Of a DNA stretch of 64,000 nt, positions 16,434 to 31,520 are shown in pieces. Origin of the DNA: Saccharopolyspora soli (GTDB lineage Bacteria > Actinomycetota > Actinomycetes > Mycobacteriales > Pseudonocardiaceae); contig NZ_JALBWV010000013.1 of assembly GCF_022678645.1 (NCBI RefSeq), positions 62,001 through 126,000 on the forward strand, written 5' to 3'. The notes under the pieces were generated by a model. It did not search any database. It saw only the letters and a program-made list of their open reading frames with translations, and was not told where the DNA came from. Numbering within the stretch: position 1 is the first letter of the stretch; every line of letters starts with the position of its first letter. The position numbers and the translations under genes are program-made.

Positions 16434-16964
16434 TCACATCTGGTGCAGCGCCTGGAAAACCTGCTCGGTGTACTCGGCCAGCCGGTCGGTGCAGTGCTGC
16501 AAGCGCTGCTGCGCTTCGGCCGCCGCAGGTGCGCCGAACACGTCGCGCGCCTTGAGATCGCGGTACCAGCGGCGCAGCCGTTCCAGGCTCTGCTCTTCCT
16601 CTTCCAGCTCGGCCATGGTCAGCTTGTTGTTGCGCAACTCCTTGTCGATCTCGGCGTCGAACTTGCCGCAGTCGGCCAGGAACTCCGCCCACTCCTCCTG
16701 CCGTTCGGCGGTGAACATCGCCGTCAGGCGAGCCGCGTCGGGTTCGTCACGTCCGGTGGCCGCCAGCACGACGACCTCGCCGGAGCCCCGTTCGGCCAGC
16801 TCGATCGCGCGCGCCACTCCGGCGGCGACGCCGGGCACGTCCGGCAGCGCCCAGGTGCCCTGGCCCAGCGAGAGCGCGCCGACCCGGCGCAACTCCCGCC
16901 ACACCGCCACGCGGTGTCGCGACGGCTGGGCGGGTAGCCGCACCACCAACACCAACCAGGGCAT
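16434..16964 (-). CDS. ChrB-like chromate-resistance-type protein
   Basis: 176 aa. It matches the ChrB N-terminal domain family: WLVLVVRLPAQPSRHRVAVWRELRRVGALSLGQGTWALPD at the start, then a C-terminal helical region rich in Glu and Arg (ELEEEEQSLERLRRWYRDLK). In proteobacteria ChrB regulates or supports chromate efflux; the shorter actinobacterial forms often stand next to transporters and their job is not settled. The ATG at 16962-16964 matches the family start; upstream codons are in the promoter region. A strong palindrome lies 23 nt upstream. It is cotranscribed with the MFS gene and divergent from carbonic anhydrase. Confidence 0.8.
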   Translation of the reverse strand: MPWLVLVVRLPAQPSRHRVAVWRELRRVGALSLGQGTWALPDVPGVAAGVARAIELAERGSGEVVVLAATGRDEPDAARLTAMFTAERQEEWAEFLADCGKFDAEIDKELRNNKLTMAELEEEEQSLERLRRWYRDLKARDVFGAPAAAEAQQRLQHCTDRLAEYTEQVFQALHQM

Positions 16965-16987
16965 TCGCTCCGCCGTCACGGAACCGA

Positions 16988-17005
16988 ATGTATCACGTGT
17001 TACAT
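16988..17005. promoter_or_regulatory. 18-bp palindromic operator candidate upstream of chrB
   Basis: ATGTATCACGTGTTACAT is a palindrome around a CACGTG core with a single mismatched pair. It sits 23 nt before the chrB start in the divergent chrB/carbonic anhydrase region, a normal place for a repressor site. Autorepression by ChrB or binding of another dimeric regulator is inferred. Confidence 0.6.
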
Positions 17006-17097
17006 CTTGGATTGCTGCCCGCTCGCCAGTGGTGACCTCGCCCATACGGCGGTGCTCGAACGGCGTCATTCGAACCAACGTGCGGTAGCTTTTCCGC

Positions 17098-17727
17098 ATG
17101 TCCAATCCGCCGTCTTCGCCTGCCCACGCCTTCGAAATGCTGTTGGAAGGCAACCGGCGGTTCGTGGAGAGCGCCCGGCTGCACCCGAACCAGGACGCGG
17201 ACTACCGCGCCTCGCTCGCGCCCGGACAGCGGCCGTTCGCGGTGCTCTTCGGCTGCTCCGACTCCCGGCTGGCCGCTGAGATCATCTTCGACCAGGGCCT
17301 CGGCGACCTGTTCGTGGTCCGCACCGCGGGGCACGTCGCCGGTCCAGAGGTGCTGGGCAGCATCGAATACGGCATCGGCGTGCTCGGCACCCCGCTGGTG
17401 GTGGTGCTCGGGCACGACTCGTGCGGAGCGGTCACGGCCGCGCGCCAGGCGTGCATCGAAGGCACCGCGCCGCCGGGCTACGTCCGGGACATCGTGGAGC
17501 GCGTGACGCCGAGTGTGCTGGCCGCCCGCGCCGCGGGCACCACCGAGGTCGACGAGATCGTGGACGTGCACATCCAGCGCACCATCGACCTGATGATGGA
17601 ACGCTCCACCCTGCTGGCCACCGAGGTGGCCGCGGGCCGCTGCGCGGTGGCCGGGCTCTCCTACCGCCTCGCCGGTGGAACCGTCCGGCTCGTCGGCAGC
17701 CACGGCCCGCTGCGCCCCGAGGGCTGA
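17098..17727 (+). CDS. beta-class carbonic anhydrase
   Basis: 209 aa. It interconverts CO2 and bicarbonate in the cytosol. The zinc and active-site motif CSDSR gives Cys53, Asp55 and Arg57; the other zinc ligands are His106 and Cys109 in GHDSCGA. Length and motifs fit beta-carbonic anhydrases. A TAGCTT -10-like hexamer at 17086-17091 ends 6 nt before the ATG and no clear ribosome-binding site is present, so the transcript may be leaderless. It diverges from chrB and converges on the FAD oxidoreductase gene. Confidence 0.94.
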   Translation: MSNPPSSPAHAFEMLLEGNRRFVESARLHPNQDADYRASLAPGQRPFAVLFGCSDSRLAAEIIFDQGLGDLFVVRTAGHVAGPEVLGSIEYGIGVLGTPLVVVLGHDSCGAVTAARQACIEGTAPPGYVRDIVERVTPSVLAARAAGTTEVDEIVDVHIQRTIDLMMERSTLLATEVAAGRCAVAGLSYRLAGGTVRLVGSHGPLRPEG

Positions 17728-17742
17728 CTGCGGCTACCGCAG
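17728..17742. terminator. short shared hairpin between convergent genes
   Basis: CTGCGG (17728-17733) and CCGCAG (17737-17742) flank a 3-nt loop right after the carbonic anhydrase stop and inside the last codons of the FAD oxidoreductase gene. It may be a compact bidirectional terminator; the stem is short, so confidence is limited. Confidence 0.35.
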
Positions 17743-18834
17743 CGGGTCGTAGGGACTGATGTCGAAGCCGGGGTCGAGGCCCAACGCGAGCTTCGCCGCG
17801 ACGGAGCCGACGTAGGGGCCCATCGTCAGACCGGTAGCGCCGAGGCCGTTGGCCACGACCAGGCCGGACACCTGCGGCACCGTACCGAGCAGCGGTCGGA
17901 CGTCCGGACCCATCGGGCGGAACCCGATTCGGGTCTCCACGTACGCCGCGTCGGCCAGGCCCGGCGCCACCGACAGCGCCTCGCGCAGCACCTCCGCCAG
18001 CCCGCCAGCGGTCACCCGGTGCTCGAAGCCGCTGCCGTCCTCGCGGGTCGCGCCGACAACCACCCGTGAATCGTCGAACGTCAGCAGGTAGTGCCGCGAC
18101 CGCGGGAGCACGACCGGCCAGTTCGCGGTGTCGGTTCCGGGCAGCCGCAGGTGCATGATCTGGCCGCGTTGCGGAACGATCGACACCTCGACGCCGAGCG
18201 GTTCCAGCAGCTGCGCTGACCACGCCCCGGCGGCTGCGACCACCGCATCCGCCGCGACGAACTCGTCCTCGATCCGCACGCCGCGCACCTCGCCATCGGT
18301 GCTGACGATCGACGCGGTGCCGTTGACGATCCGCGCACCGTGCCGTTCAGCCGCGCGCCGCAGCGCATCACGCACCCGGCGACCGTCCAACCGGGCCGCG
18401 CCGGGAACGTGGATCGCCGGGCCGTCGTGCCGCAACGGCGGGAACAGCTCGCGAGCACGCTGGCCGGCGATCAGCGCGACCTCACCGGCCAACGGGGAGT
18501 CCGCGGCGCGCCCAAGTACCCGCTGCAATTCCGCGTCGGCTTCGTCCTCGGTGACCAGCCGCAGCGAGCCGACGCGCCGATAGCCGAGGTCCGGCTCGCC
18601 GTCGGCGGCCAACGCCGCCACCAAGTCCTGGTAGTGCTCCGCCCCGGCGACCGCGACCCGGTACCAGTCGGGATCGTCCACTTGCGACGACCACGGGCAG
18701 ATGATGCCCGCCCCTGCCGAAGTCGCCCGCCCCTGGATCGCCGAGTCGACGAGCACGACATCCGTACCGGACCGCGCCAGCTCGTACCCGGCAGCCGCCC
18801 CGACGATGCCCGCTCCGACAACCACCACCCGCAT
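17734..18834 (-). CDS. FAD-dependent oxidoreductase, DAO/glycine oxidase family
   Basis: 366 aa. The FAD-binding Rossmann motif VVVVGAGIVGAAAGYELA is at the N terminus, and the C-terminal GATGLTMGPYVGSVAAKLA closes the FAD site. The family oxidises secondary or primary amines of amino acids (D-amino acid oxidase, glycine or sarcosine oxidase, D-amino acid dehydrogenase); the substrate is unclear. The ATG at 18834 has GGAGGAG upstream. It is divergent from the glycosyltransferase-acyltransferase fusion gene. Confidence 0.87.
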   Translation of the reverse strand: MRVVVVGAGIVGAAAGYELARSGTDVVLVDSAIQGRATSAGAGIICPWSSQVDDPDWYRVAVAGAEHYQDLVAALAADGEPDLGYRRVGSLRLVTEDEADAELQRVLGRAADSPLAGEVALIAGQRARELFPPLRHDGPAIHVPGAARLDGRRVRDALRRAAERHGARIVNGTASIVSTDGEVRGVRIEDEFVAADAVVAAAGAWSAQLLEPLGVEVSIVPQRGQIMHLRLPGTDTANWPVVLPRSRHYLLTFDDSRVVVGATREDGSGFEHRVTAGGLAEVLREALSVAPGLADAAYVETRIGFRPMGPDVRPLLGTVPQVSGLVVANGLGATGLTMGPYVGSVAAKLALGLDPGFDISPYDPLR

Positions 18835-18947
18835 CCCTGCTCCTCCTCCACTACCCGCCACTTCGGACTCGCGGTCGCCCGGCCAGCCGAAACCGCCCGG
18901 TCACGCTAGCCTGCTGGGGCACGAGTCTGGCGAAAGGATCCAGCCGC

Positions 18948-21329
18948 GTGACTGTCCAGCCGCGTCGAGTGCTACTGATCAGCGCTACCATCGGCGAAGG
19001 GCACAATGCGACCGCCCGCGCCGTCGAGGAGGCGGCCCGGCAGGTGTGGCCGGGATGCGAGGTGGCCTGGCTGGACGCCCTGCGCACGATGGGCCGGTGG
19101 GTGCCCGCGACGTTCACCTGGATCTACGCCACCAACGTCGAGTCCACACCGTGGCTCTACGACTTCTTCTACGAATCGCTGTGGCGCTACCGCTGGTTCG
19201 CCAGCGGCTCCCGCCGGTTCGTCGGCGCCTGGAGCGGGCCGTTGCTGCGCCGGGCCATCGCCGAGCACGACCCCGATCTGATCGTTTCGACCTATCCCCT
19301 GGGCACCGCCGGGCTGGACTGGCTGCGCCGCCGGGGCGAGCTGGACGTGCCGGTGGCCGCGGTGGTTTCGGACTTCTCGCCGCACCCGTTCTGGGTCTAC
19401 CCGGAGATCGACCTGCACTACGTGATGAGCGAGGCGAGCCTGCGGGCCATGCGGCGCGCCGAGCCGAACGCGGTGGGCGCCGCCTGCGCGCCGCCTGTCA
19501 TCTCGGCGTTCCAACCCGCTGATCGGGCACCGGCGCGGCGGACGTTCGGGCTGCCGGAGACCGGTTTCACGGTGTTGATCTCGTGCGGGTCGCTCGGGTT
19601 CGGCGCGGTCGATCGCGCGGTGGACGCGTCGCTGCGAGCGGACCGCGTCGACCGAGTTGTGGTGGTCTGCGGGCGAAATGCCGCGCTGCGGCAGCGGTTC
19701 GCGGACCGGTCGGACGACCGGCTGGTGCCGTTGGGCTGGGTCGACGACATGCCCGGCTTGGTGGCGTGCGCGGATGTCATGGTGACCAACGCGGGCGGGG
19801 CAACGGCATTGGAGGCGCTCGCGTGCGGGCGTGCGGTGGTGATGTTCGAACCGATCGCCGGGCACGGCCGCGCGAATGCCGAGCTGATGGCCGCCGCCGG
19901 GCTGGCCGAGCTCTGCCCGCGAGAACGCGATCTGACCGAGACGCTGCGGCGGTGGGCAGCCGATCCGCACGAGGTGACCCAGCGGGAGCACCAAGCGCTC
20001 AAGCACAGTCTCGCCGCTGACTTCACCGAGCAGGTGGCTGGGCTGGCACAGTTGCCCCGGCATCACGGCCCTCGGCGACTGCGCCCGCAGGACGCATTCT
20101 TCGTGTACGCCACGACTCCGGCCGTCTCGCAGCAGACCGGGGCGATCCTGCTGCTCGAAGGCCAACAGCGGTCCACATCGGACTGGTGCGAGCACATCAC
20201 CCGGAGAATCGAGCTGCACGCCGCCGGATTACCAATGCTGACACGACGTCTGGTGATCCGGCGCGGACGTCGACCACAGTGGACTCACTGTGGCGAGATC
20301 GACCCCACCGACCACCTGCGGTGTCGGGAACTGCGCGACGGGCAGAGCGTGGATGCGTTCGTCAACGAGTTCTTCAGCGCCCCGGTGCGCACCGATCGGC
20401 CCCCTTGGGAACTGCTGTTGTTGCACGACGTCGACACCGGTCGCGTCTCGCTGCTGGCGAAGATGCACCACGCGCTCGGCGACGGGGTGGCGGTGACCAG
20501 CACCCTGCTGCGGTTGCTCTGCGACCGCCCGCCGCCCGCGACAACACCGAGCCGGGGCGCCGGTCCAGCGTGGCATCGGCGTGCCGGGCCGATCCTGCGC
20601 GGCCTCGTGAGCCTTGCCGGTGCTGGACCGGCGCCGAAGACAAGCCTCGCGGGACGCAGCACGCCGAACCGCTCCTTCGGCCACTTGGAACTCCCAGCCG
20701 CCGAAGTCCGCGCGTGTGCGCGCAAGCACCAGGTGAGCAGCACCGCGCTACTGCTGGGCGTGGTCGCCGAAGCGCTGCACCGGATCCTCGCCGACACCAC
20801 ACCAGGCCAGCGGTTCCGAGTGATGGTGCCGCGAACCGCCCGGACCGCCCGAGGCGGCGCGGGCACCGGCACACCCGGCAACCACACCGTCTCGGTGTCG
20901 ATCGACCTGCCCGTTGGGCCGATGCCAGCCGGCCGACGGCTCAGCGAGGTCGCCGCCGGGCTCGCCCGGCCGGATCGCACCGGGCAACCGGCCGCGGCGG
21001 GGGCCGTGCTGGCGGCGCTGGGACTCCTACCAGCACCGCTGCATGCTTGGCTCGTGCGGCAGATCTACCAGCGCCGATTCTTCAACGCCGTGGTGTCGGT
21101 GCTGCCCGGACAACGCCGCCCCTCGCACATCGGCGGGGCACTCCTCGCGGGCGTGCTGCCGGTGCTGTCGCTGGCCGATGGCGTGGGCGTGGCCGTCGGC
21201 GCGATCGGCTGGGGAGAGCGGGTCGGGTTCGGGATCACCACGGACACCGGGCTGGCGCCGGAGGCTGCTGTGCTGGCCAGGCACGTCCGCGACGCTTTCG
21301 CCGACCTGCGAGGGGGCGACCAGCGGTGA
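18948..21329 (+). CDS. fusion of MGDG-synthase-like glycosyltransferase and WS/DGAT acyltransferase
   Basis: 793 aa, two enzymes in one chain. Residues 1 to about 370 are a GT28-like glycosyltransferase: the MGDG-synthase N-terminal motif SATIGEGHNATARAVEEA, then a nucleotide-sugar half with VMVTNAGGATALEALACG. Residues from about 385 are a wax ester synthase/diacylglycerol acyltransferase: LRPQDAFF, the RPPWELLLL motif, and the catalytic HHALGDG at residues 507-513, followed by the DUF1298-like C-terminal part. Separate members are about 370-400 and 450 aa, so both domains look complete. An enzyme that glycosylates and acylates one lipid, or couples the two steps, is inferred. The next gene starts in its stop codon (GTGA overlap). 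GTG start at 18948. Confidence 0.88.
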   Translation: MTVQPRRVLLISATIGEGHNATARAVEEAARQVWPGCEVAWLDALRTMGRWVPATFTWIYATNVESTPWLYDFFYESLWRYRWFASGSRRFVGAWSGPLLRRAIAEHDPDLIVSTYPLGTAGLDWLRRRGELDVPVAAVVSDFSPHPFWVYPEIDLHYVMSEASLRAMRRAEPNAVGAACAPPVISAFQPADRAPARRTFGLPETGFTVLISCGSLGFGAVDRAVDASLRADRVDRVVVVCGRNAALRQRFADRSDDRLVPLGWVDDMPGLVACADVMVTNAGGATALEALACGRAVVMFEPIAGHGRANAELMAAAGLAELCPRERDLTETLRRWAADPHEVTQREHQALKHSLAADFTEQVAGLAQLPRHHGPRRLRPQDAFFVYATTPAVSQQTGAILLLEGQQRSTSDWCEHITRRIELHAAGLPMLTRRLVIRRGRRPQWTHCGEIDPTDHLRCRELRDGQSVDAFVNEFFSAPVRTDRPPWELLLLHDVDTGRVSLLAKMHHALGDGVAVTSTLLRLLCDRPPPATTPSRGAGPAWHRRAGPILRGLVSLAGAGPAPKTSLAGRSTPNRSFGHLELPAAEVRACARKHQVSSTALLLGVVAEALHRILADTTPGQRFRVMVPRTARTARGGAGTGTPGNHTVSVSIDLPVGPMPAGRRLSEVAAGLARPDRTGQPAAAGAVLAALGLLPAPLHAWLVRQIYQRRFFNAVVSVLPGQRRPSHIGGALLAGVLPVLSLADGVGVAVGAIGWGERVGFGITTDTGLAPEAAVLARHVRDAFADLRGGDQR

Positions 21330-22252
21330 GCTCGCACGGCACGGTGTTCGTCATCGCCGTTCCGGCCGCGGTCGTCGGCGCCGCCAGCTTCGGCCTGGCC
21401 AGCGCGATCCAGCACCGGGTCACCAAGCAGGTGCCCAAGGTGCGCACGCTGAGCCCCCGCATGCTGTTCGACCTGATCCGCAAGCCGATCTGGGTGCTCA
21501 GCATCCTCACCGTGATCGTCGGGTTGTCGTTGCAGGTCGTGGCGCTGGCCTTCGGCCCGCTGGTGCTGGTGCAGCCGCTGCTGGTGACTTCGGTGCTCTT
21601 CGGCGCGGGATTCGCCGCGTGGCTGGCGCACCGCAAGATGGACCTGGTGCTGGCACTCGGAGGGCTGGCCTGCGTCGGCGGGTTGTCCGCGTTCCTGGTG
21701 CTGGCTCGGCCGTCCGGGCAGGGCACCGAGTTCACCGGCGCGTCGATCCTGCCGTTGGCGTTGGCGCTCGGACTGCTGGTCGTGGTGTCGCTGCTGGGTG
21801 CGCGACTGGTCCCCGGCGAGGCCGGGGTGATCGGGATGGCGGTGGCCACCGGCGTGCTGTACGGGGTGACCGCCGGGTTGATCAAGGTGGTGGCCGGGCA
21901 GTTCCGCAGCGGCGGGCTGGCCGAACCGTTCCTGCACTGGTCGCTGTACGCGGTGTGCGTGATCGGACCGATGGGATTCCTGCTGAGCCAGCAGACCTTC
22001 CAGCGGGGCCGGTTGATGTCCCCGGCGCTGGCGGTGATCACCACGGTGGACCCGCTGGTAGCGGCCGCGATCGGGGTGAACTGGCTCGGCGAGCGCATCG
22101 AGTCCTCCCCCGCGATCCTCTCCGGTGAGATGATCGCCGTCGTGGTGATCATCGGCGGCATCGTGGTGCTGACCCGCCGCGGCGAGCAGTTGCGCCGGGC
22201 GATGGAGCAGACCGACCGCGACGGGGACTCGGCGGACTCGACGTGGGGCTGA
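21326..22252 (+). CDS. DMT superfamily transporter
   Basis: 308 aa with about nine to ten hydrophobic segments and few charged residues between them, in the arrangement of the drug/metabolite transporter superfamily (EamA/NIPA-like). It starts at GTG 21326, overlapping the stop of the fusion gene by 4 nt (GTGA), which implies translational coupling. Possible cargo is a metabolite, lipid precursor or cation; nothing in the sequence decides. Given its coupling to a lipid-making enzyme, moving a lipid intermediate across the membrane is a speculative option. Confidence 0.85.
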   Translation: MSSHGTVFVIAVPAAVVGAASFGLASAIQHRVTKQVPKVRTLSPRMLFDLIRKPIWVLSILTVIVGLSLQVVALAFGPLVLVQPLLVTSVLFGAGFAAWLAHRKMDLVLALGGLACVGGLSAFLVLARPSGQGTEFTGASILPLALALGLLVVVSLLGARLVPGEAGVIGMAVATGVLYGVTAGLIKVVAGQFRSGGLAEPFLHWSLYAVCVIGPMGFLLSQQTFQRGRLMSPALAVITTVDPLVAAAIGVNWLGERIESSPAILSGEMIAVVVIIGGIVVLTRRGEQLRRAMEQTDRDGDSADSTWG

Positions 22253-22971
22253 CGGTGCGCGGGCGAACCGCGCTGGTCACGGGCGCGTCGTCGGGAATCG
22301 GTGCGGCCACCGCCGCTGAACTCGCGGCAGCGGGCTGCACGGTCCTGCTCACCGGTCGCGACGAACGACGCCTCACCGAGGTCGCCCAGCGCACCGGCGG
22401 CCAACCGGTGCTCGCCGATCTCACCGACCCGGCCGGACTCGACCGCGTCGCCGCTGCCGCGCGGGACGTCGATCTGCTGGTGCACAGCGCGGGCGTGGGG
22501 TGGGCGGGTGAGCTGGCGTCGATGCCAGCAGAGCGGATCGCGGCGCTCACCGAGGTGAACCTGACCGCGCCGATGCTGTTGACCCGCGCGGCGCTGCCGG
22601 AGATGCTGCGGCGCCGCTGCGGGCACATCGTGTTCATCTCGTCGATCGCCGTCGTGGGTGTGCCGGGCGAAGAGGTCTACTCGGCGACGAAAGCTGGGCT
22701 GCGCGCCTTCGCCGCGAGCATCCGCCACCAAACCGAGATCGGGGTGACCACGGTGCATCCAGGGGCGGTGCGCACGCCGTTCTTCGACAACCGCCGCTAC
22801 GAACGCCGGTTCCCGCGCATGGTCAGCCCGGAAGACGTGGCCGTTGCGCTGGTTCGTGCCGTGCAGCAGGGCAAGCCCGAGGTTTTCGTCCCGAAGTGGC
22901 TCACCGTGCCCGCTCGCTTGCAGGGCGCACTACCCGAGGTGTTCCACCGCCTGGCCCGCCGCTTCGGTTGA
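22243..22971 (+). CDS. short-chain dehydrogenase/reductase
   Basis: 242 aa classical SDR. The cofactor motif TGASSGIG is near residues 14-21, the HSAGVG stretch stands for NNAG, the catalytic serine is in VFISSIA and the YxxxK pair in YSATKAG. Substrate unknown. The GTG at 22243 overlaps the DMT gene by 10 nt; an alternative GTG is at 22255. As third gene of a coupled operon behind the glycosyltransferase-acyltransferase fusion it may reduce a keto or aldehyde group of the lipid product or precursor, which is an inference. Confidence 0.9.
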   Translation: MGLTVRGRTALVTGASSGIGAATAAELAAAGCTVLLTGRDERRLTEVAQRTGGQPVLADLTDPAGLDRVAAAARDVDLLVHSAGVGWAGELASMPAERIAALTEVNLTAPMLLTRAALPEMLRRRCGHIVFISSIAVVGVPGEEVYSATKAGLRAFAASIRHQTEIGVTTVHPGAVRTPFFDNRRYERRFPRMVSPEDVAVALVRAVQQGKPEVFVPKWLTVPARLQGALPEVFHRLARRFG

Positions 22972-22988: not shown

Positions 22989-23651
22989 TCAGGTCGTCGC
23001 GGGGCGCTTGCCGAAGCGCAGCCGGATTCCTTCGCCGCGCAGTTCTCGGCGGAACCACAGCAGGGATGCGACCGCCGCGACGGCGACCAGCGAGAACGAT
23101 CCGGCCGTGCTGACCACCAGGAAATTCCCGAGGGTGACCTGCGCCAGCGCCCACAACGTGGTCAGCCCGTTGATGGTGAACACCAGCGCCCACAGCAGCG
23201 ACACGCGGCGGAAGAACCGCTGCACCCGCGCGTTGCGGGTCAGTTCGGCTGGCAGCAGGCAGAAGTCGTTGGCCAGCTTCGCCAGGAACGTCCGCTCGAA
23301 CGGCAGGGTGACCAGCAGGACGATCGCGATCAGGAAGTTCTGCAGGCTCGGTTCCAGGAAGTACACGAACGTCGAACCGGTGACGAAACCGAGCACCGTG
23401 CGGGCCACCAGGATCCCCGTGGTCAACCACAGCACCACCGGGATCTTCGCCCCCACCACCAGCCGGAAGGTCATCGCGGCCGCCACCCAGCCCAGCGCCG
23501 CGAGCAGACCACCGGTGAAGCCGGTCAGCCGGTACAGCAGGTAGAACAGCAGCAACGGGGCCAGCACCGTCTCCACCAGGTGTTTGGTGGCGTGCCACAG
23601 GTGCGACGGCAGTCCGTGGAGGTCAACGGTGAGTTGGTGGTGGTTGTGCAT
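22989..23651 (-). CDS. VC0807-family membrane protein
   Basis: 220 aa with about six hydrophobic segments (for example VETVLAPLLLFYLLYRLTG and residues 100-120). It resembles the VC0807 group, distant relatives of intracellular septation protein A, with ERTFLAKLANDFCLLP in a central loop. Function unknown. It lies 80 nt downstream of hpnH on the same strand and may be a last member of the hopanoid operon, though many genomes keep it apart. Confidence 0.7.
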   Translation of the reverse strand: MHNHHQLTVDLHGLPSHLWHATKHLVETVLAPLLLFYLLYRLTGFTGGLLAALGWVAAAMTFRLVVGAKIPVVLWLTTGILVARTVLGFVTGSTFVYFLEPSLQNFLIAIVLLVTLPFERTFLAKLANDFCLLPAELTRNARVQRFFRRVSLLWALVFTINGLTTLWALAQVTLGNFLVVSTAGSFSLVAVAAVASLLWFRRELRGEGIRLRFGKRPATT

Positions 23652-23731: not shown

Positions 23732-24733
23732 CTACCCCCGCAACGCGCGGATCGACTCGCGCAACGAACTCATGGTGGCCAGCACCGCGGTCGGCTCGTA
23801 GCCGCAGTGTGCCATGCAGTTGGCGCAGCGCGGATCACGGCCCCGTCCGTAGGCGGACCAGTCGGTGTCCGCGAGCAATTCCTGGTAGCTGGACGCGTAA
23901 CCGTCGTTCATCAGATAGCAGGGCCGCTGCCAGCCGTACAGCGAGTACGACGGGATTGCCCACGCGGTGCACTGGAAGTCGACCCGTCCCTCCAGGAAGT
24001 CCAGGAACAGCGGCGAGTGGTTGAACCGCCACTTCCCGCGCCGCCCGTCGGCGAAGACCTTGCGGAACAGCTCGCGGGTCTCGGTCACGCCGAGGAAGTG
24101 GTCCTGATCCGGCGCCTTGTCGTAGGCGTAGGCCGGGGACAGCATCATCTGGTCGACCTTGAGGTCGTTGTTGAGGAACTCCAGCACCTCGACCACCGAC
24201 TGCGGGGTGTCGGAGGTGAAGAAGGTCGAGTTGGTGGTCACCCGGAACCCGCGGTGCTGGACCTCCTTGATGTTGTCCACCGCCTGCGCGAACACGCCCG
24301 ACTTGCACACCGAGGCGTCGTGCCGCTCCTCCAGCCCGTCGATGTGCACCGCCCACGCGAAGTACGGCGACGGCCGGAACTTGTCGATCTTGCGGGGCAG
24401 CAGCAGCGCGTTGGTGCACAGGTAGACGAACTTCTTGCGCTTGATCAGCTCGTCGACGATGACTTCGATCTCGGGGTGCATCAGCGGTTCGCCACCGGCG
24501 ATGGACACCACCGGCGCGCCGCACTCCTCGACCGCGGCGACGGCCTGCTCAACCGGCATCCGCTGCTTGAGCACGCTCGCCGGGTGCTGGATCTTGCCGC
24601 AGCCCGCGCAGGCCAGGTTGCAGGCGAACAGCGGCTCCAGTTCCAGGGTCAGGGCGAACTTGTCGCGGCGGGCGAGCTTCTGCTTGACCAGGTAGGCGCC
24701 GACTCGGATCGCCTGGCGCATCGGAATACCCAT
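23732..24733 (-). CDS. hpnH: adenosyl-hopene transferase HpnH (radical SAM)
   Basis: 333 aa. HpnH joins a 5'-deoxyadenosyl group to diploptene, the first step from C30 to C35 extended hopanoids. The radical SAM cluster is CNLACAGC (Cys38, Cys42, Cys45), SIAGGEPLMHP follows, and a SPASM-like Cys cluster occurs near the C terminus (CANCMAHCG). The ATG at 24733 has AAGGAGGTG upstream and overlaps the hpnG stop by one base. It is the last core gene of the hopanoid operon; its product is the substrate of HpnG. Confidence 0.93.
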   Translation of the reverse strand: MGIPMRQAIRVGAYLVKQKLARRDKFALTLELEPLFACNLACAGCGKIQHPASVLKQRMPVEQAVAAVEECGAPVVSIAGGEPLMHPEIEVIVDELIKRKKFVYLCTNALLLPRKIDKFRPSPYFAWAVHIDGLEERHDASVCKSGVFAQAVDNIKEVQHRGFRVTTNSTFFTSDTPQSVVEVLEFLNNDLKVDQMMLSPAYAYDKAPDQDHFLGVTETRELFRKVFADGRRGKWRFNHSPLFLDFLEGRVDFQCTAWAIPSYSLYGWQRPCYLMNDGYASSYQELLADTDWSAYGRGRDPRCANCMAHCGYEPTAVLATMSSLRESIRALRG

Positions 24734-25344
24734 CAGTGCACCTCCTTGGACGCGGCGGATCGGATCCCTGGTGAGACGGTGCGGCCCCAGCGCGACAGGC
24801 ACGGGCCGATGGCGTGCAGCCGGGCGAGTGCCGCCAGCGCCCGGCTCGGCGTGCCCGGCCGCAGCAGCGGCTGTCGACCGGTGTCGATCACGACGCGCAC
24901 GACGCCGAACGGGCGCGACCCGGCGGCTTCGGCGAGCGCAGCCGATTCCATGTCCACGGCGAGCGCGCCGGTGCGGGCCAGCTCGGCACGCCGCGTGCCG
25001 TGCACGACGTGGTCCGTGGTGACGATCGGCCCGCAGTGCACCGGAAACCCCGCGCGGCGCAGCTCGGCGGCCAACGAGAGCGCCGACGGACAGTGCACGA
25101 TGCCGCCCGGCCCGCGCAACTCGTCGGCCACGATCACGTCGCCGCTGCGGAGGTCAGCATCGAGGCCCCCGGCGAGTCCGGCGATGACCAGCACGTCGAA
25201 GTCCGCAGCGGCGAGTGCCGTCGCGCTGCGGACGCTGCGACGCGGGCCGTATCCGGTGCGGCGCACGGACTTCTCGCCCAATGCCGCCCGCAGGGCGCGG
25301 GCTTCGAGGCCCAGCGGTGCGCAGACCAGCAACCGTGGCGACAT
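24733..25344 (-). CDS. hpnG: adenosylhopane nucleoside phosphorylase HpnG
   Basis: 203 aa, nucleoside phosphorylase superfamily. HpnG removes adenine from adenosylhopane to give phosphoribosylhopane/ribosylhopane. Visible features are the phosphate-binding start LLVCAPLGLEARAL, the AGLAGGLD loop and the VDMESAALA motif, which binds the ribose hydroxyls in this superfamily. The ATG at 25344 has GGAGG upstream, one base after the shc stop. Its stop overlaps the hpnH start. Confidence 0.87.
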   Translation of the reverse strand: MSPRLLVCAPLGLEARALRAALGEKSVRRTGYGPRRSVRSATALAAADFDVLVIAGLAGGLDADLRSGDVIVADELRGPGGIVHCPSALSLAAELRRAGFPVHCGPIVTTDHVVHGTRRAELARTGALAVDMESAALAEAAGSRPFGVVRVVIDTGRQPLLRPGTPSRALAALARLHAIGPCLSRWGRTVSPGIRSAASKEVH

Positions 25345-25345
25345 C

Positions 25346-27253
25346 TCATCCTCCGGCGCGCTGGTACCGGCCCAGTGCGGTGAGCGGGAAGATCACCCGG
25401 TACAGGTGGTAGTTGATGTAGAAGTCACCGGGGAAGCCGGTGCCGGTGAACTGCGGCTCGTCCCAACCACCGTCCGCGCGCTGGGCGCCGACCAGGTACT
25501 GCACGCCGCGGCGCACCGCTTCGGTGTCGTGCCGGTCCAGTGCCAGCAGGGCCAGCAGCGCCCATCCGGTCTGCGACGGCGTGGAATCACCTCTGCCGAT
25601 CCAAGCCGGGTCGTCGTAGGAGCGCAGGTCCTCGCCCCAGCCGCCATCGTCGTTCTGGTGGCTTTCCAGCCACCGCACCGCTCGGCGCAACGCGCGGTGA
25701 TCGGGTTGCAGGCCCGCCCGCACCAGGGCCGGGACCACGGCACCGGTGCCGTAGACGTGGTTCGCGCCCCACCGTCCGAACCAGGAACCGTCCTTCTCCT
25801 GGTTGTTCAGCAACCACTGCACGCCACGCTGGACGACCTTGTCGTGGTACCCCAGCGCCGCCAAGGCTTCGACCACGTGCGCCGTCACATCGGCCGACGG
25901 CGGGTCGATCACCTCGCCGAAGTCGCAGAACGGCAGTTTGCGCACCAGCTCTCGGGTGTTGTCGGCGTCGAAGGCACCCCAGCCGCCGTCCGCCGACTGC
26001 ATGCCGCGCAGCCATCGGATGCCGCGCTCGATCGCGCCGTGCACGCCCGCCTTGTCCGGGTGCTCCATCCGGTTCAGCGCCAGCAGCACTTCCGCGGTGT
26101 CGTCGATGTCCGGGTAGCCGTCGTTGTCGAACTCGAACGCCCAGCCGCCACCGGCGGGCAAGTTCGGGCGGCGCACCGACCAGTCGCCCTTGACCCGGAT
26201 CTCCTCGGCCAGCAGGTAGTCGGTCGCCCGGCGCAGCGACGGGTGGTCGGCGGACACCCCGGCGTCGCACAACGCCTGCATGCCGAGCACCGTGTCCCAC
26301 ACCGGGGACTGGCACGCTTCCAGCCGCCGCACCGTACCGGCTGGGGTGTGCTCGCGGATCAGGAACCGCTCCATTCCGGCCAAGCCCTGCCGCAACACCG
26401 GGTGGTCCAACGGGTAGCCGAGCAGGTGCAGGGCGAGCAGCGAGTACACCCACGGCGGCTGGATGCCGCCCCAGGAGCCGTCCGCCTCCTGCCGAGCCAC
26501 GATCCACTCCGCGGCGCGCAACATCGCATGCCTGCGAATTGTCCTGAGTGGACGCCGCTGGTAGTGGTGCAGGATTCGGTCCAGTGACTGGAAACCGTAG
26601 CTCCACGACCACTGCGGACGAACTGGCGCACTGACACGGCCGGTCCGAAGTTCGCGCACGGTGATTCCGAGATCTCGTTGCGGGCGCAGCGTGCACACCA
26701 CGGTCAACGGGACCACCGTCTGCCGCGCCCAGCATCCCCAGTCGGACAGGTTGAGCGGGAACCACTTGGGCAGCAGCACGAGTTCCGGGGGCATCGCGGG
26801 CAGCTCGTCCCAGGACCATTCGCCGAACAGCGCCAACCAGATCCGGGTGAACACGCGGGTGGCTTCCAGCCCGCCCTGCGCCAGGATCCAGTCGCGCGCC
26901 GCCACCATGTGCGCGGCGTCGACGTCGTCGCCCGCGAGCTTGAGCGCGGCGTAGGCCTCCACTGTGGTCGACAGGTCGCCGGGACCCTCGTAGAAGTTCG
27001 CCCAAGTGCCGTCGGAGCGCTGCTGCGAGCGGATCCAGCGGGCCGCCTGCTCGGTCTCGGTGGCGGTGCGGATGCCGAGGAACTGCCGCAGCAGCAGGTC
27101 CTCGACATCCATCGTCACGTTGGTTTCCAGCTCGCCCTTCCACCAACCCTCGGGGTGCTGCAGGGAAAGCAGGTAGTCACGGCCAGCGGCCAGCGCGCTC
27201 CTGGTGTCGGGGACCGCGATCGTGCTGGCGGACTGCTGCAACTGATCGGTCAA
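25346..27253 (-). CDS. shc: squalene-hopene cyclase
   Basis: 635 aa, membrane-associated monotopic cyclase that turns squalene into hopene and hopanol. The catalytic acid motif DIDDTAE (DXDD) is near residue 385, and several QW repeats are visible (for example QEADGSWGG, QSADGGWGA, QEKDGSWFG, QNDDGGWGE, QRADGGWDE). Length is normal. The start is TTG at 27253, preceded by GGAGGAAAC and sharing two bases with the stop of the polyprenyl synthase gene (TTGA); the frame is open to 27934 but is antisense-like there. Confidence 0.95.
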   Translation of the reverse strand: MTDQLQQSASTIAVPDTRSALAAGRDYLLSLQHPEGWWKGELETNVTMDVEDLLLRQFLGIRTATETEQAARWIRSQQRSDGTWANFYEGPGDLSTTVEAYAALKLAGDDVDAAHMVAARDWILAQGGLEATRVFTRIWLALFGEWSWDELPAMPPELVLLPKWFPLNLSDWGCWARQTVVPLTVVCTLRPQRDLGITVRELRTGRVSAPVRPQWSWSYGFQSLDRILHHYQRRPLRTIRRHAMLRAAEWIVARQEADGSWGGIQPPWVYSLLALHLLGYPLDHPVLRQGLAGMERFLIREHTPAGTVRRLEACQSPVWDTVLGMQALCDAGVSADHPSLRRATDYLLAEEIRVKGDWSVRRPNLPAGGGWAFEFDNDGYPDIDDTAEVLLALNRMEHPDKAGVHGAIERGIRWLRGMQSADGGWGAFDADNTRELVRKLPFCDFGEVIDPPSADVTAHVVEALAALGYHDKVVQRGVQWLLNNQEKDGSWFGRWGANHVYGTGAVVPALVRAGLQPDHRALRRAVRWLESHQNDDGGWGEDLRSYDDPAWIGRGDSTPSQTGWALLALLALDRHDTEAVRRGVQYLVGAQRADGGWDEPQFTGTGFPGDFYINYHLYRVIFPLTALGRYQRAGG

Positions 27254-28266
27254 AGTTTCCTCCGTACGATGAACTCGGCGAGTTCGGTCAACGCCTCGGT
27301 AGCGCCGTGCGGACCGTCGGGCAGGTGCTGGTGGGCGGCGGTCAGGCGCCGCCTGCACTCCTGGTGGGTCCAGTCCGCCGAACCAGCCCGCCGCACCATT
27401 TCGGCGGCCTCGTGCAACTGGTCCTCGGTCAGCGGTTCGGGCTGGGCGTACAGCTGGCGCAGCCGATCTCCGGGCGCGGACCCGGAGCTCAACGCGTGCA
27501 CGACGGGCACTGACTTCTTGCGGGCGCGCAGGTCCGACAACACCGGCTTGCCGGTGACCTCGGGATCGCCCCACAGCCCGAGCAGGTCGTCGACGAGTTG
27601 GAAGGCCATCCCCAACTCGGTGCCGAAGGCGTGCAGCCGCAGCACGGTTTCGCGCGGTGCGCCGACGCAGCACGCGCCGATGGACGTCGCGCAGGCCAGC
27701 AGCGCGGCGGTCTTGTCGTGCGCCATCCGAAGGCATTCGTCCAGCCCCACCTCCTGGCGGCGCTCGAAGTCCAGGTCGGCGGCCTGACCGGCGATCAGGG
27801 TGCGGGTCGCGGCGCACAACGACCGGGCCGCGGCCACCGCGTGGCTGGACGACGACTCCAGCAGCACGTCGGTGCTCAACGCCAGCAACGCGTCCCCGGC
27901 CAGCAGCGCCGCCGGTCGGCCGAAGACCGTCCACGCCGTCGGCCGGTGGCGGCGGGAGGTGTCGCCGTCCATCACGTCGTCGTGCAGCAGGGAGAAGTTG
28001 TGCACCAACTCCACTGCGGCCGCCGCAGCGATCGGCCCATCACCTGGTGCGACAGCCGCATCGACGCTGCGTGCGGACAACAACACCATCGCCGGTCGCA
28101 GGGCCTTGCCACCACCGCCATCCGGGGAGCCGTCGGCGTCGCTCCAGCCGAAGTGGTACTCGCACACCCGGCGGGTGTCCGGGTCGAGTCGGCCGACTGC
28201 CTTGCGCAGTGCCGGATCCACCGACTCCCGGGCCGTGCGCAGTACTGGTGGCAGAGCAGTCGTCAT
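27250..28266 (-). CDS. polyprenyl (farnesyl/geranylgeranyl) diphosphate synthase
   Basis: 338 aa trans-isoprenyl diphosphate synthase. The first Asp-rich motif appears as DDVMDGD and the second as DDLLGLWGD; the upstream KALRPAMVLLSA and HNFSLLHDD are typical. The DDxxD spacing of the first motif is preserved. In this operon it most likely supplies farnesyl diphosphate for HpnD/HpnC, though a longer chain is possible. ATG at 28266 with GGAGGTGACC, overlapping the hpnE stop by 4 nt (ATGA). Confidence 0.9.
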   Translation of the reverse strand: MTTALPPVLRTARESVDPALRKAVGRLDPDTRRVCEYHFGWSDADGSPDGGGGKALRPAMVLLSARSVDAAVAPGDGPIAAAAAVELVHNFSLLHDDVMDGDTSRRHRPTAWTVFGRPAALLAGDALLALSTDVLLESSSSHAVAAARSLCAATRTLIAGQAADLDFERRQEVGLDECLRMAHDKTAALLACATSIGACCVGAPRETVLRLHAFGTELGMAFQLVDDLLGLWGDPEVTGKPVLSDLRARKKSVPVVHALSSGSAPGDRLRQLYAQPEPLTEDQLHEAAEMVRRAGSADWTHQECRRRLTAAHQHLPDGPHGATEALTELAEFIVRRKL

Positions 28267-29624
28267 GCGGTCACCTCCACGCCTCGTTGCGATCGCTGGT
28301 CCAGATCCACTACCTCGGCGGCGCGAGTGCCACTCAGCACCGCTCCTTCCGTCGTGTCCGGCCATCCGGTGCTGGTCCACGCCCCGGCCAGCACCAGACC
28401 GGGCACCGCGGTGCGGGCCGGTGGGCGGATCGCGGCGGTGCCGGGAGCCTGCCGGAAGGTGGCGTTGGGTTCGCGGGTGACGAAGAAGTCCAGCACCCCC
28501 GCGTCGCGGGCGCGCGGGAAGACCTCTTGCAGCGCGGGCAGAAACACCTCGCGCAGGTACTCGGTGCGCGCCTGGACCTGCTGTTGTGCGGCAGAAAGCG
28601 AAATGGCCAGGTACTGGCCGCGCGACGCACCCGAGATGGTCGTCCGGTCGAAAACCCACTGCACCGGCGAATCCAGCACCGCGGCCATCGCCAGGTCGGT
28701 GACCTGCCGGTCGTAGCGGACGTGCACGTTGACGATCGGTGCCGCCGAAAGCTTCGCCCAGGCCGCCACGCCCGGCACCGGCAGGTCGGCGACGAGTGCC
28801 GCGGCCGCGCGGTGCGGTACCGCGATGACCACGGAGTCCGCCGTCAAGACAACATCGCCGGTGTTCTCGCGCACCGGCACTTGAAAACCCGTGCCGGAGC
28901 GGCGGACCACCCGCGCCTTGCAGCGCAACCGGACATCAACGCCAACGCCCAGCAGGGCCCGGTAAGCCGCCTCGCCGTGCAGTTGTCCCAGCGGAACCTG
29001 TGGAATCGCGATGTCGGCGCTGTCGGCGGTATCCAGCACTCCGGTGCGAAACACCTTGGTCGCCAACGCCATTGACGCCTCGTCCGGTTCGGCGTTGAGC
29101 GCCGCGACCGCCAACAGCCCCCACAACGCGTCGGCAGCGCGCCGGGATTCGCCGTGCTGCCGCAGCCAGTCCCCGAGGCTGATCTGGTCCAGCTCGGGAT
29201 CATCGGGGTCGAGCCGCCGAAGCGCCAGGGCGGTTCGCGCCACCCGCATCCGTTCCGGCAGCGTCAGCAGCCGATAACCCAGCAGTGCCGGGGTCAGGTG
29301 CGCCGGTGCCGGGAGGTTCCAGCGGCGCAGCAGCGAAGCCCGCCCGTCGGGGGTCAACACCGGAACCTGGAAGCGCCGTTGCATGCTGATCGAGTCCGCG
29401 ACCCCGAGCCGCCGCAGCAGTCCGAGGTAGGCCGTGTAGCAGCGCAGGAACACGTGCTGGCCGGTGTCCACCACGAGTTCCCCGCGCGGGAACGAATACG
29501 TCGCGCCACCCAGTCGCGACCGCGCCTCGAGCAAGGTGACCTCGAAGCCCAGCTCAGCGCAGCGCAGCGCGGCCGTCACCCCGGCCAGCCCGCCGCCGAC
29601 CACCGCCACCCGCCCGCGGCTCAC
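28263..29624 (-). CDS. hpnE: hydroxysqualene dehydroxylase HpnE
   Basis: 453 aa FAD protein of the amine oxidase/phytoene desaturase type. HpnE reduces hydroxysqualene to squalene. The N-terminal Rossmann motif is VAVVGGGLAGVTAAL, followed by LLEARSRLGGAT, and the C-terminal FAD motif is LVLAGAWTSTGWPDTTEGA. It starts at GTG 29624, overlapping the hpnD stop by 4 nt (GTGA). Position between hpnD and the polyprenyl synthase gene fits the HpnCDE squalene route. Confidence 0.93.
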   Translation of the reverse strand: MSRGRVAVVGGGLAGVTAALRCAELGFEVTLLEARSRLGGATYSFPRGELVVDTGQHVFLRCYTAYLGLLRRLGVADSISMQRRFQVPVLTPDGRASLLRRWNLPAPAHLTPALLGYRLLTLPERMRVARTALALRRLDPDDPELDQISLGDWLRQHGESRRAADALWGLLAVAALNAEPDEASMALATKVFRTGVLDTADSADIAIPQVPLGQLHGEAAYRALLGVGVDVRLRCKARVVRRSGTGFQVPVRENTGDVVLTADSVVIAVPHRAAAALVADLPVPGVAAWAKLSAAPIVNVHVRYDRQVTDLAMAAVLDSPVQWVFDRTTISGASRGQYLAISLSAAQQQVQARTEYLREVFLPALQEVFPRARDAGVLDFFVTREPNATFRQAPGTAAIRPPARTAVPGLVLAGAWTSTGWPDTTEGAVLSGTRAAEVVDLDQRSQRGVEVTA

Positions 29625-30484
29625 GGCGCCATCCCGGCCAGTGAGCGCGCCGCCACGCCCGCCTTCTGCCAGCCGGACAACGAGGTCCGCTGGTTCAGCG
29701 CGGCTCGCGGGTCGGCGGCGATGCGCGCCAGCAGTTCGTGGTAGATGCCAGCCATCGACGCGCAGCACGCCCGGCTGCGCCGATCCAGCATGGGCAGCAG
29801 CCGAAGTCCCTCCGCGTACCACTGCTCGGCGCGGGCGGCCTGGAAGCGGATCAACTGGTCCCACCGGGCCGGTGCCTCGACGGGACCGTCGCCCGGTTCC
29901 AGCCGGACGCCGAACCGCGCCAAGTCCTCGGCGGGCAGGTAGACCCGGCCGCCCAACTGGTCCTCCCGGACATCGCGCAGGATGTTGGTCAGTTGCAGGG
30001 CGACACCGAGCGCGTCCGCCCGTCGCTCGGCGGTGGGCGGGTCGATGGTGCCGAACACGCCCAGCGACAACCGTCCGATCGAACCGGCCACGCACCGGCA
30101 GTAGTGCAGCAGCTCGTCGAAGGTCTGGTACCGCGCGCCGCGGACGTCGGCCTCGCAGCCGTCGATGAGTTCGTCGAAGGCGGCCAGCGGCACCGGCAGG
30201 CGGGCGGCGGAATCGGCCAGCGCCACCACCACCGGGTCGGGGGCGTCGATGTGCGCCGCGTGGACTGCTTCGCGGGCCTGCTTGAGCCGCCGCAGCTTCT
30301 CCTCCCGCGGCAGGTCACCGTCGCCGATGTCGTCGACGCGCCGGGCGAAGGCGTACACCGCCGACAGCGCCCGCCGCTTCGGGCCGGGCAGCAGCCGTAT
30401 CCCGTAGGAGAAGTTTCGCGCCTGTTGCCTTGTGATTCGCTCGCACTCCAGGTAGGCGTCCCGAATACGCGCCGCCTCGGTCAC
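29621..30484 (-). CDS. hpnD: presqualene diphosphate synthase HpnD
   Basis: 287 aa, squalene/phytoene synthase family. HpnD condenses two farnesyl diphosphates to presqualene diphosphate. The Asp-rich motifs are ARRVDDIGDGD and NILRDVREDQLGGRVYLP. The GTG at 30484 is chosen because it overlaps the hpnC stop by 4 nt and has GGGAGG about 9 nt before it; an upstream ATG at 30517 lies inside hpnC. Confidence 0.93.
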   Translation of the reverse strand: MTEAARIRDAYLECERITRQQARNFSYGIRLLPGPKRRALSAVYAFARRVDDIGDGDLPREEKLRRLKQAREAVHAAHIDAPDPVVVALADSAARLPVPLAAFDELIDGCEADVRGARYQTFDELLHYCRCVAGSIGRLSLGVFGTIDPPTAERRADALGVALQLTNILRDVREDQLGGRVYLPAEDLARFGVRLEPGDGPVEAPARWDQLIRFQAARAEQWYAEGLRLLPMLDRRSRACCASMAGIYHELLARIAADPRAALNQRTSLSGWQKAGVAARSLAGMAP

Positions 30485-31389
30485 CAAGTGCCTCCCAACG
30501 AGTACAACCGTCCCCATTCGACGAAGGTGCGCCGCCGACCCGGCCGCACGTCCACCCGCAGCGGATCGTGGTTCGCCGCGGCGAAAGCGGCCGCAGTGGC
30601 GCGCCCGCCCGCGACGTAACCGGCGACCGCGATGCGGGCCGTGCCGGACAGCTCACCCACCAGTGGTGCGCCCGCGTCGAGCATCCGCCGCGCACGGTCC
30701 ACTTCGTACTTCACCAGCCCGCGCAGCCGCGTCGAGGCACCCGCTGCGACCAGTTCTGACTCCGCGCAACCGAAGCGCTGCATGTCCTCGATCGGCAGGT
30801 ACACCCGGTCCTGCTGGAAGTCCTCCGCGATGTCCTGGCAGTGTTCGAGGATCTGCAGTGCGGTGCAGATCCGGTCCGACAGGGCGATCAGCGGCGGCTC
30901 GGCTCGGCCGAAGACGTGCAACACCGCCTCCCCCACCGGATTCGCCGACAGAGCGCAGTAGTCGAGCAGGTCGGTGAAAGCCGGGTACCGCCGCACCTGC
31001 TGGTCCTGCCGATTGGCCTCGATCAACTTGACCAGCACTTCGTGGGGGATGGCACACTCGGCAACCGTGGGTGTGAGCGCACGCAGCATCGGGATTCGGG
31101 CACTACCGTGGTACGCGCGCTTGAGGTCGACCGCCAGGAAATCCAGCAGCGCGCCGCGGTTGCCGGGCGCCTCGTCCCCGGCGTAGTCGACGAGCCGGAA
31201 GAAGCCGTACAGGGCCTGCAGGTGCTGTCGCTTCCCACTCGGCAGGATCCGAGCCGCGACCGGAAAGTTCTCCGACCGCATCCTCGCGAGCACTGCCGCA
31301 CTGCGCGGAAAATCACCCGAACGTGGTTCCTCGTTCGAGTGTTCGGAATCCCCGCCGGACAATGCGTTATCAGGCAGCGACAAGACCAT
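30481..31389 (-). CDS. hpnC: hydroxysqualene synthase HpnC
   Basis: 302 aa, squalene/phytoene synthase family. HpnC hydrolyses presqualene diphosphate to hydroxysqualene. The first Asp-rich motif is reduced to RLVDYAGDE and the second is CQDIAEDFQQDRVYLP, as seen in HpnC rather than HpnD. ATG at 31389 with GGAGGAGGG upstream; it is the first gene of the hopanoid operon. A possible -10 hexamer TACGAT is at 31435-31430, giving a leader of about 35 nt, but no good -35 box is seen. Confidence 0.92.
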   Translation of the reverse strand: MVLSLPDNALSGGDSEHSNEEPRSGDFPRSAAVLARMRSENFPVAARILPSGKRQHLQALYGFFRLVDYAGDEAPGNRGALLDFLAVDLKRAYHGSARIPMLRALTPTVAECAIPHEVLVKLIEANRQDQQVRRYPAFTDLLDYCALSANPVGEAVLHVFGRAEPPLIALSDRICTALQILEHCQDIAEDFQQDRVYLPIEDMQRFGCAESELVAAGASTRLRGLVKYEVDRARRMLDAGAPLVGELSGTARIAVAGYVAGGRATAAAFAAANHDPLRVDVRPGRRRTFVEWGRLYSLGGTW

Positions 31390-31520
31390 CGGCCCTCCTC
31401 CTATCCGCCGACCAGGAGGCGCAACCGGCATCGTATGAGCACCACTGCCGCACCGCAGGGTGAGCAATGGATCATCACGATTTCGGGCGGTTCGAGCCGA
31501 TGTTCGACCACCAGGCGAAC

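Follow-up and report, generated by a model that had tools for sequence, protein, structure and literature searches.

A conserved glycosyltransferase-WS/DGAT fusion beside hopanoid genes in Saccharopolyspora and its relatives, a probable hopanoid-decorating enzyme

Hopanoids are bacterial sterol-like membrane lipids and are used as biomarkers. Glycosylated and acylated hopanoids are already known as lipids, and both the MGDG-synthase-type glycosyltransferases (GT) and the WS/DGAT acyltransferases are known domain families; we know of no member of either family that acts on hopanoids. Among the described systems, HpnI is the N-acetylglucosaminyltransferase of bacteriohopanetetrol (BHT) according to the available sections of a 2025 paper, which also give the enzyme for the conversion of ribosylhopane into BHT as not yet established (PMC12583986). 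N-acylglucosaminyl-BHT in Alicyclobacillus and N-acylaminotriols in Nitrosomonas are described in the available sections of PMC8537080, which in their treatment of acylated hopanoids name no single enzyme with both a GT and an acyltransferase, and no description of a GT-WS/DGAT fusion or of a hopanoid acyltransferase was found in the openly licensed PMC literature. What is new in the locus described here is that one chain carries both domains and recurs in the hopanoid clusters of one family. By computation, the fusion is conserved and under selection, has intact motifs, stands in an operon with a transporter and a short-chain dehydrogenase/reductase (SDR), and is co-inherited beside hopanoid genes; it probably decorates hopanoids in a manner not yet described.

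The window, that is, the whole 64,000-nucleotide stretch of Saccharopolyspora soli DNA that was analysed, contains at 18948..21329 (+) an open frame of 793 aa, running from a GTG start to TGA, in which an N-terminal MGDG-synthase/UgtP-like GT half (18948..20057, +; residues 1-370; Pfam, PDB and Foldseek) is followed by a C-terminal WS/DGAT acyltransferase half (20067..21326, +; residues 374-793; Pfam, 6chj and 7nxg). Four Pfam domains score above their curated cut-offs, namely MGDG_synth (residues 19-169, 64.3 bits), Glyco_tran_28_C (208-350, 35.3 bits), WS_DGAT_cat (378-537, 71.2 bits) and WS_DGAT_C (644-787, 48.0 bits), in agreement with the preliminary description of the locus as one chain with a full GT and a full WS/DGAT. 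The motifs named in that description are present: GEGHN (18993..19007, +) at residues 16-20, NAGG at 281-284 within NAGGATALE (19788..19814, +; residues 281-289), and the acyltransferase active-site motif HHALGDG (20466..20486, +) at 507-513, the position given there. In an alignment of 20 fusions, G16, G18, H19 and N20 of the first, N281-A285 and A287-E289 of the second, and H507, H508, G511, D512 and G513 of the third are invariant. His19 is aligned with the GGGH histidine of MGD1 (alignment to 4wyi), and NAGGATALE is the expected sugar-nucleotide site, a role that we assume from what is familiar of the GT28/MurG family. The AlphaFold model built from an alignment of 20 fusions (mean pLDDT 84.2, pTM 0.69) is matched by Foldseek to the Marinobacter WS/DGAT (6chj, E 2.4e-25), to AbWSD1 (7nxg, E 2.8e-23) and to MGD1 (4x1t, E 7.1e-17); it informs on folds, not on acceptors.

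With UgtP, a processive diacylglycerol beta-glucosyltransferase (PRK13609; PDB 9wde), and the plant MGD1 (4wyi, 4x1t), of which 9wde and 4wyi are PDB relatives of the GT half, the fusion shares the MGDG_synth and GT28 C-terminal fold, the GxGH motif and the sugar-nucleotide domain, but it reaches 121.4 bits with the UgtP equivalog PRK13609 (NCBIfam; cut-off 500), carries an acyltransferase and is hopanoid-linked. With the WS/DGATs (TIGR02946; Marinobacter 6chj, Acinetobacter AbWSD1 7nxg) it shares the fold, the HHxxxDG motif and both Pfam domains, but it reaches 189.1 bits with the TIGR02946 subfamily (NCBIfam; cut-off 309.95), and its acyltransferase is fused C-terminally to a GT. Since both scores lie well below the cut-offs, the fusion is a member of both superfamilies and of neither named subfamily. 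In a quick tree (the GT and acyltransferase trees were all of this kind, with no bootstrap and only a few outgroup WS/DGATs), the acyltransferase also separates from its own genome's two other WS/DGATs.

The fusion is the first gene of an overlapping operon, in which it is followed by a DMT-superfamily/NIPA-like membrane transporter and candidate flippase (21326..22252, +; NCBIfam DMT_1 86.1 bits, cut-off 50; synteny), whose GTG overlaps the TGA of the fusion (GTGA), and by an SDR oxidoreductase (22243..22971, +; Pfam/NCBIfam searches), a candidate ribosylhopane reductase whose start overlaps the end of the transporter. The SDR is present also in loci where the transporter is lost. Convergent to this operon, and absent from the preliminary description, is a hopanoid cluster some 2.5 kb from the fusion ORF, all on the minus strand: a VC0807-family membrane protein (22989..23651; NCBIfam VC0807_fam, above cut-off), the adenosylhopane transferase HpnH (23732..24802; TIGR03470 520 bits, cut-off 225), an HpnG-like phosphorylase (24733..25344; TIGR03468 90 bits, below the cut-off of 187), squalene-hopene cyclase (SHC; 25346..27253, 5' end approximate; TIGR01507 762.7 bits), a polyprenyl diphosphate synthase (27250..28280, up to 28659, 5' end approximate; profile search), HpnE (28263..29650, 5' end approximate; TIGR03467 409 bits), HpnD (29621..30517; TIGR03465 296.5 bits) and HpnC (30481..31400, 5' end approximate; TIGR03464 260.5 bits), the last three above their cut-offs. 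The best model for the prenyl synthase is that of a family-2 encapsulin cargo polyprenyl transferase, at 420.7 bits just below the cut-off of 450. Upstream of the fusion, at 16437-18861, lie genes for a carbonic anhydrase, a ChrB N-terminal protein and a glycine-oxidase-like FAD enzyme, which are present in only part of the genus among the loci compared.

In the family, 180 genomes were searched with the fusion protein and with HpnH. The fusion protein was matched, partly or wholly, in 85 of them, which by the part covered are sorted into 59 with the fusion, in 17 genera, 16 with the acyltransferase without a fused GT, and 10 with the GT only (the genome G911, where two pieces lie within a single 923-aa open frame, is counted as fusion). 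HpnH is found in 75 genomes, and 58 have both genes (Fisher p 1.7e-30, with related genomes treated as independent); the sole fusion genome without HpnH is 93% complete (G863). By genus, the fusion occurs in 17 of the 19 genera with HpnH and in none of the 27 others, the remaining two being g385 and g386. The HpnH genomes with neither a fusion nor an acyltransferase match are G939 (87% complete) and G944 (91%); in the latter (L148, genus g385), neither a further hpn gene nor an SDR or acyltransferase was matched in the 19.9 kb around HpnH. Both genes stand on one contig in 55 of the 58 genomes, at no more than 5 kb from each other in 44, 15 kb in 52 and 30 kb in 54, the widest gap being 124 kb, in one genome. 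The acyltransferase without a fused GT behaves alike: 15 of the 16 genomes, all 15 from two genera, have HpnH, each within 9 kb, and the sixteenth (G895) is 90% complete and in 450 contigs.

Linkage to SHC/HpnH and co-occurrence with them, as looked for in a hopanoid-tailoring enzyme, are thus both observed. The same genes are found in several different arrangements, five Pseudonocardiales MAGs having the cluster on the opposite side and L141 and L143 showing other orders, so that the linkage is not merely one frozen gene order. Across 47 loci with the acyltransferase half, the SDR is present in 47, the GT in 44, the transporter in 44, SHC in 43, HpnH in 42, HpnG in 42 and VC0807 in 24, and stretches that end early account for several of the SHC and HpnH misses; 27 loci had been set aside before this count (L067, L068, L100-L118, L139, L140 and L147-L150), and at least one contig, judged by its equal length in L057 and L153, is present twice among the loci. 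In L061, no hpn gene is found in the surrounding 22 kb.

On balance, we favour the reading that the fusion is a bifunctional hopanoid-tailoring enzyme, which would both glycosylate and acylate a C35 hopanoid. In the route that we infer, SHC, HpnH and HpnG would lead to ribosylhopane, which the SDR would reduce to BHT; a nucleotide-sugar would then serve the GT half as donor for the glycosylation of a side-chain hydroxyl, acyl-CoA would serve the WS/DGAT half as donor for the esterification of either the sugar or the polyol, and the DMT transporter would move the product, an acylated glycosyl-BHT-type lipid, across the membrane. A hopanoid acceptor is favoured because the presence and the place of the fusion follow those of HpnH; because the window's own genome has no HpnI above cut-off (TIGR03472, best 63.5 bits, cut-off 310) and no match to HpnK, and the fused GT is the sole glycosyltransferase among the genes scanned between 16437 and 31554; and because lipids of the acylated glycosyl-BHT type are already known products elsewhere, as described in the available sections of PMC8537080. 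The fusion would work like HpnI with HpnK and HpnJ in glycosylating a C35 hopanoid, but it has no match to the HpnI model (NCBIfam), and its product would, like the lipids of Alicyclobacillus and Nitrosomonas, be an acylated and/or glycosylated C35 hopanoid, those being, however, N-acyl compounds (amides) in the same sections of PMC8537080. The SDR is put forward as the candidate ribosylhopane reductase because none of the 47 counted loci lacks it, including those that have lost the GT, and because this reductase is not established in the available sections of PMC12583986. It is conceivable, and is offered here as a tentative extension, that a large part of one actinobacterial family makes a so far undescribed class of lipids, acylated and glycosylated C35 hopanoids, via one bifunctional enzyme and a dedicated flippase, with the SDR as the ribosylhopane-to-BHT reductase. 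The operon is in any case a concrete and widespread candidate set of a GT-acyltransferase, an SDR and a transporter, and, if the hopanoid reading is true, the reach of two families otherwise associated mainly with glycerolipids and waxes would extend to a triterpenoid acceptor.

The main rival is diacylglycerol as the acceptor, with the GT forming a glycosyl-diacylglycerol, the DGAT either acylating that glycolipid or drawing on the same pool to form triacylglycerol, and the proximity to hpn genes arising from shared membrane remodelling. The names of the solved relatives point this way, since those of the GT half (UgtP, MGD1) and the family name DGAT belong to glycerolipids or waxes, and so does a WS/DGAT of the hpn cluster of genus g386, which in the one locus read (L138:6322-8382) shares its chain with a PAP2_3 phosphatase domain that could supply diacylglycerol. 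This PAP2_3-WS/DGAT is another hopanoid-linked fusion of an acyltransferase, of a different kind. The GT on its own does not follow hopanoids, since HpnH is present in only one of the 10 GT-only genomes of the family (G939), and in three genomes of family f21, groups of GT, SDR and transporter have no hpn genes within about 10 kb, HpnH being elsewhere in the genome; in one of them (L112), a polysaccharide deacetylase gene follows the SDR and the transporter beside the GT. A related GT in another family (L070:628-2547, G596) is itself joined to a polysaccharide deacetylase domain (25.6 bits, cut-off 23.1).

Wider sampling counts in part against the hopanoid reading. In a class sample of 394 genomes, the same draw for both genes, the fusion (E 1e-60 or better) is found in two, including the window's own, both with HpnH, against 92 genomes with HpnH, so that hopanoid synthesis does not need the fusion, which hopanoid makers outside this lineage mostly lack. 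In a phylum sample of 396 genomes, the GT half was matched in 35 (48 matches at E 1e-20 or better); among the loci of 30 of these 48 matches plus L067 and L068, the acyltransferase half is found only in L068 and in the window's own locus (L069), and there is no other match to it at E 1e-28 or better among the 396 genomes. The second fusion genome of the class sample, from another family (G233, the only one among the 17 genomes of that family at E 1e-40 or better), carries a fusion of 42% identity in the same operon, adjoining a full hpn cluster, which speaks for the hopanoid reading. Against diacylglycerol, an enzyme of general glycerolipid metabolism would have no need to follow HpnH, and yet 58 of the 59 fusion genomes have it, with the close spacing given above (44 of 55 same-contig cases within 5 kb); even within one genus, g401, presence and absence go together, three genomes having HpnH and the fusion and four others neither, among the matches listed. 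The diacylglycerol-like acceptor suggested in the preliminary description is therefore not the one best indicated, because the gene follows hopanoid biosynthesis in presence and position, and we consider it unlikely; the acylated glycolipid that the same description proposed as product remains a sensible one for a GT joined to an acyltransferase.

Less probable still is a reading in which each half has its own substrate within a single hopanoid-rich membrane, for example the GT a hopanoid and the acyltransferase something else, and the two are joined only for co-expression or membrane targeting. The halves are indeed separable, and either one can be found next to hopanoid genes in the absence of its partner, a distribution that speaks for the hopanoid reading as well. 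In a Nocardiopsis MAG (L067), a GT without acyltransferase stands in the order HpnR, GT, transporter (HpnR 679 bits, cut-off 650). In genus g385, in which seven genomes were matched and two loci were read (L136, L137), an acyltransferase with HHALGDG and the SDR directly adjoin HpnH, and upstream lies a GT remnant of roughly 100 residues with neither GEGHN nor the sugar-nucleotide domain; as the g385 acyltransferase nests among the fusions in the quick tree (SH-aLRT 98), the GT was most likely lost from a fusion, and acylation may here take place directly on the hopanoid polyol. In genus g386 (eight genomes), the acyltransferase lies just under 9 kb from HpnH and is not fused to a GT, the GT being at another locus in five of the eight, where in the two loci read (L139 and L140) it adjoins a transporter. 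These two GTs group with a fused GT (quick tree, support 99); the L138 acyltransferase, on a long branch, is of unsure placement, its nearest tree rows by path being ordinary WS/DGATs and the rooted tree putting it with the fusions. What stands against separate substrates is that the fused form has been kept in 17 genera with a mostly constant linker: in 48 of 57 distinct fusions (the set left after near-copies were removed by script), 71 residues separate the GT motif from the acyltransferase start, with 56-95 in the others.

The fusion is conserved, non-decayed and not an assembly artefact. All 22 genomes of the genus carry it at full length within a single open frame (60-83% identity in the 21 besides the window's own), as do 33 of the 34 named loci coding for a relative, obtained in a scan of close relatives only; the hosts are Saccharopolyspora, Halosaccharopolyspora, Halopolyspora, Actinopolyspora, and Pseudonocardiales and other MAGs, and the exception is the Nocardiopsis MAG (L067), with the GT alone. 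Both halves are under purifying selection, with Ka/Ks against five relatives of about 0.14-0.20 for the GT half and about 0.25-0.32 for the acyltransferase half. The motifs are kept throughout the 57 distinct fusions, GxGH in all 57, HHxxxDG in 56 (DHALGDG in L146) and the NAGG-E pattern in 55 (absent from L142 and L154), which together with the selection on both halves upholds the view of the preliminary description that the fusion has not decayed. The alternative that the joined frame arose by faulty assembly or annotation, or is an accidental fusion in decay, finds some echo in L142, whose fused GT is on a long branch and lacks the NAGG-E pattern, and in the real decay of the GT half in g385, but it is refuted for the window's genus and has a negligible probability, as the single stop-free frame recurs across the 22 genus genomes and the 33 named loci in many separate assemblies with Ka/Ks well under 1 in both halves, which rules out a sequencing or frame error and with it the hidden stop at residues 370-385 that had been considered. 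The other doubt raised earlier, that close relatives might carry the domains separately, does not apply within the genus, where all 22 are fused, and holds only more distantly, in g385 and g386.

Further GTs were seen in some of these regions. The hopanoid region of L141, L142 and L154 contains, besides the fusion, an unfused GT oriented divergently to it, and for such second-GT matches in G851 and G873 the search reported one in-frame TAG. In Halopolyspora, another unfused GT adjoins hpnC (L066:21204-22424).
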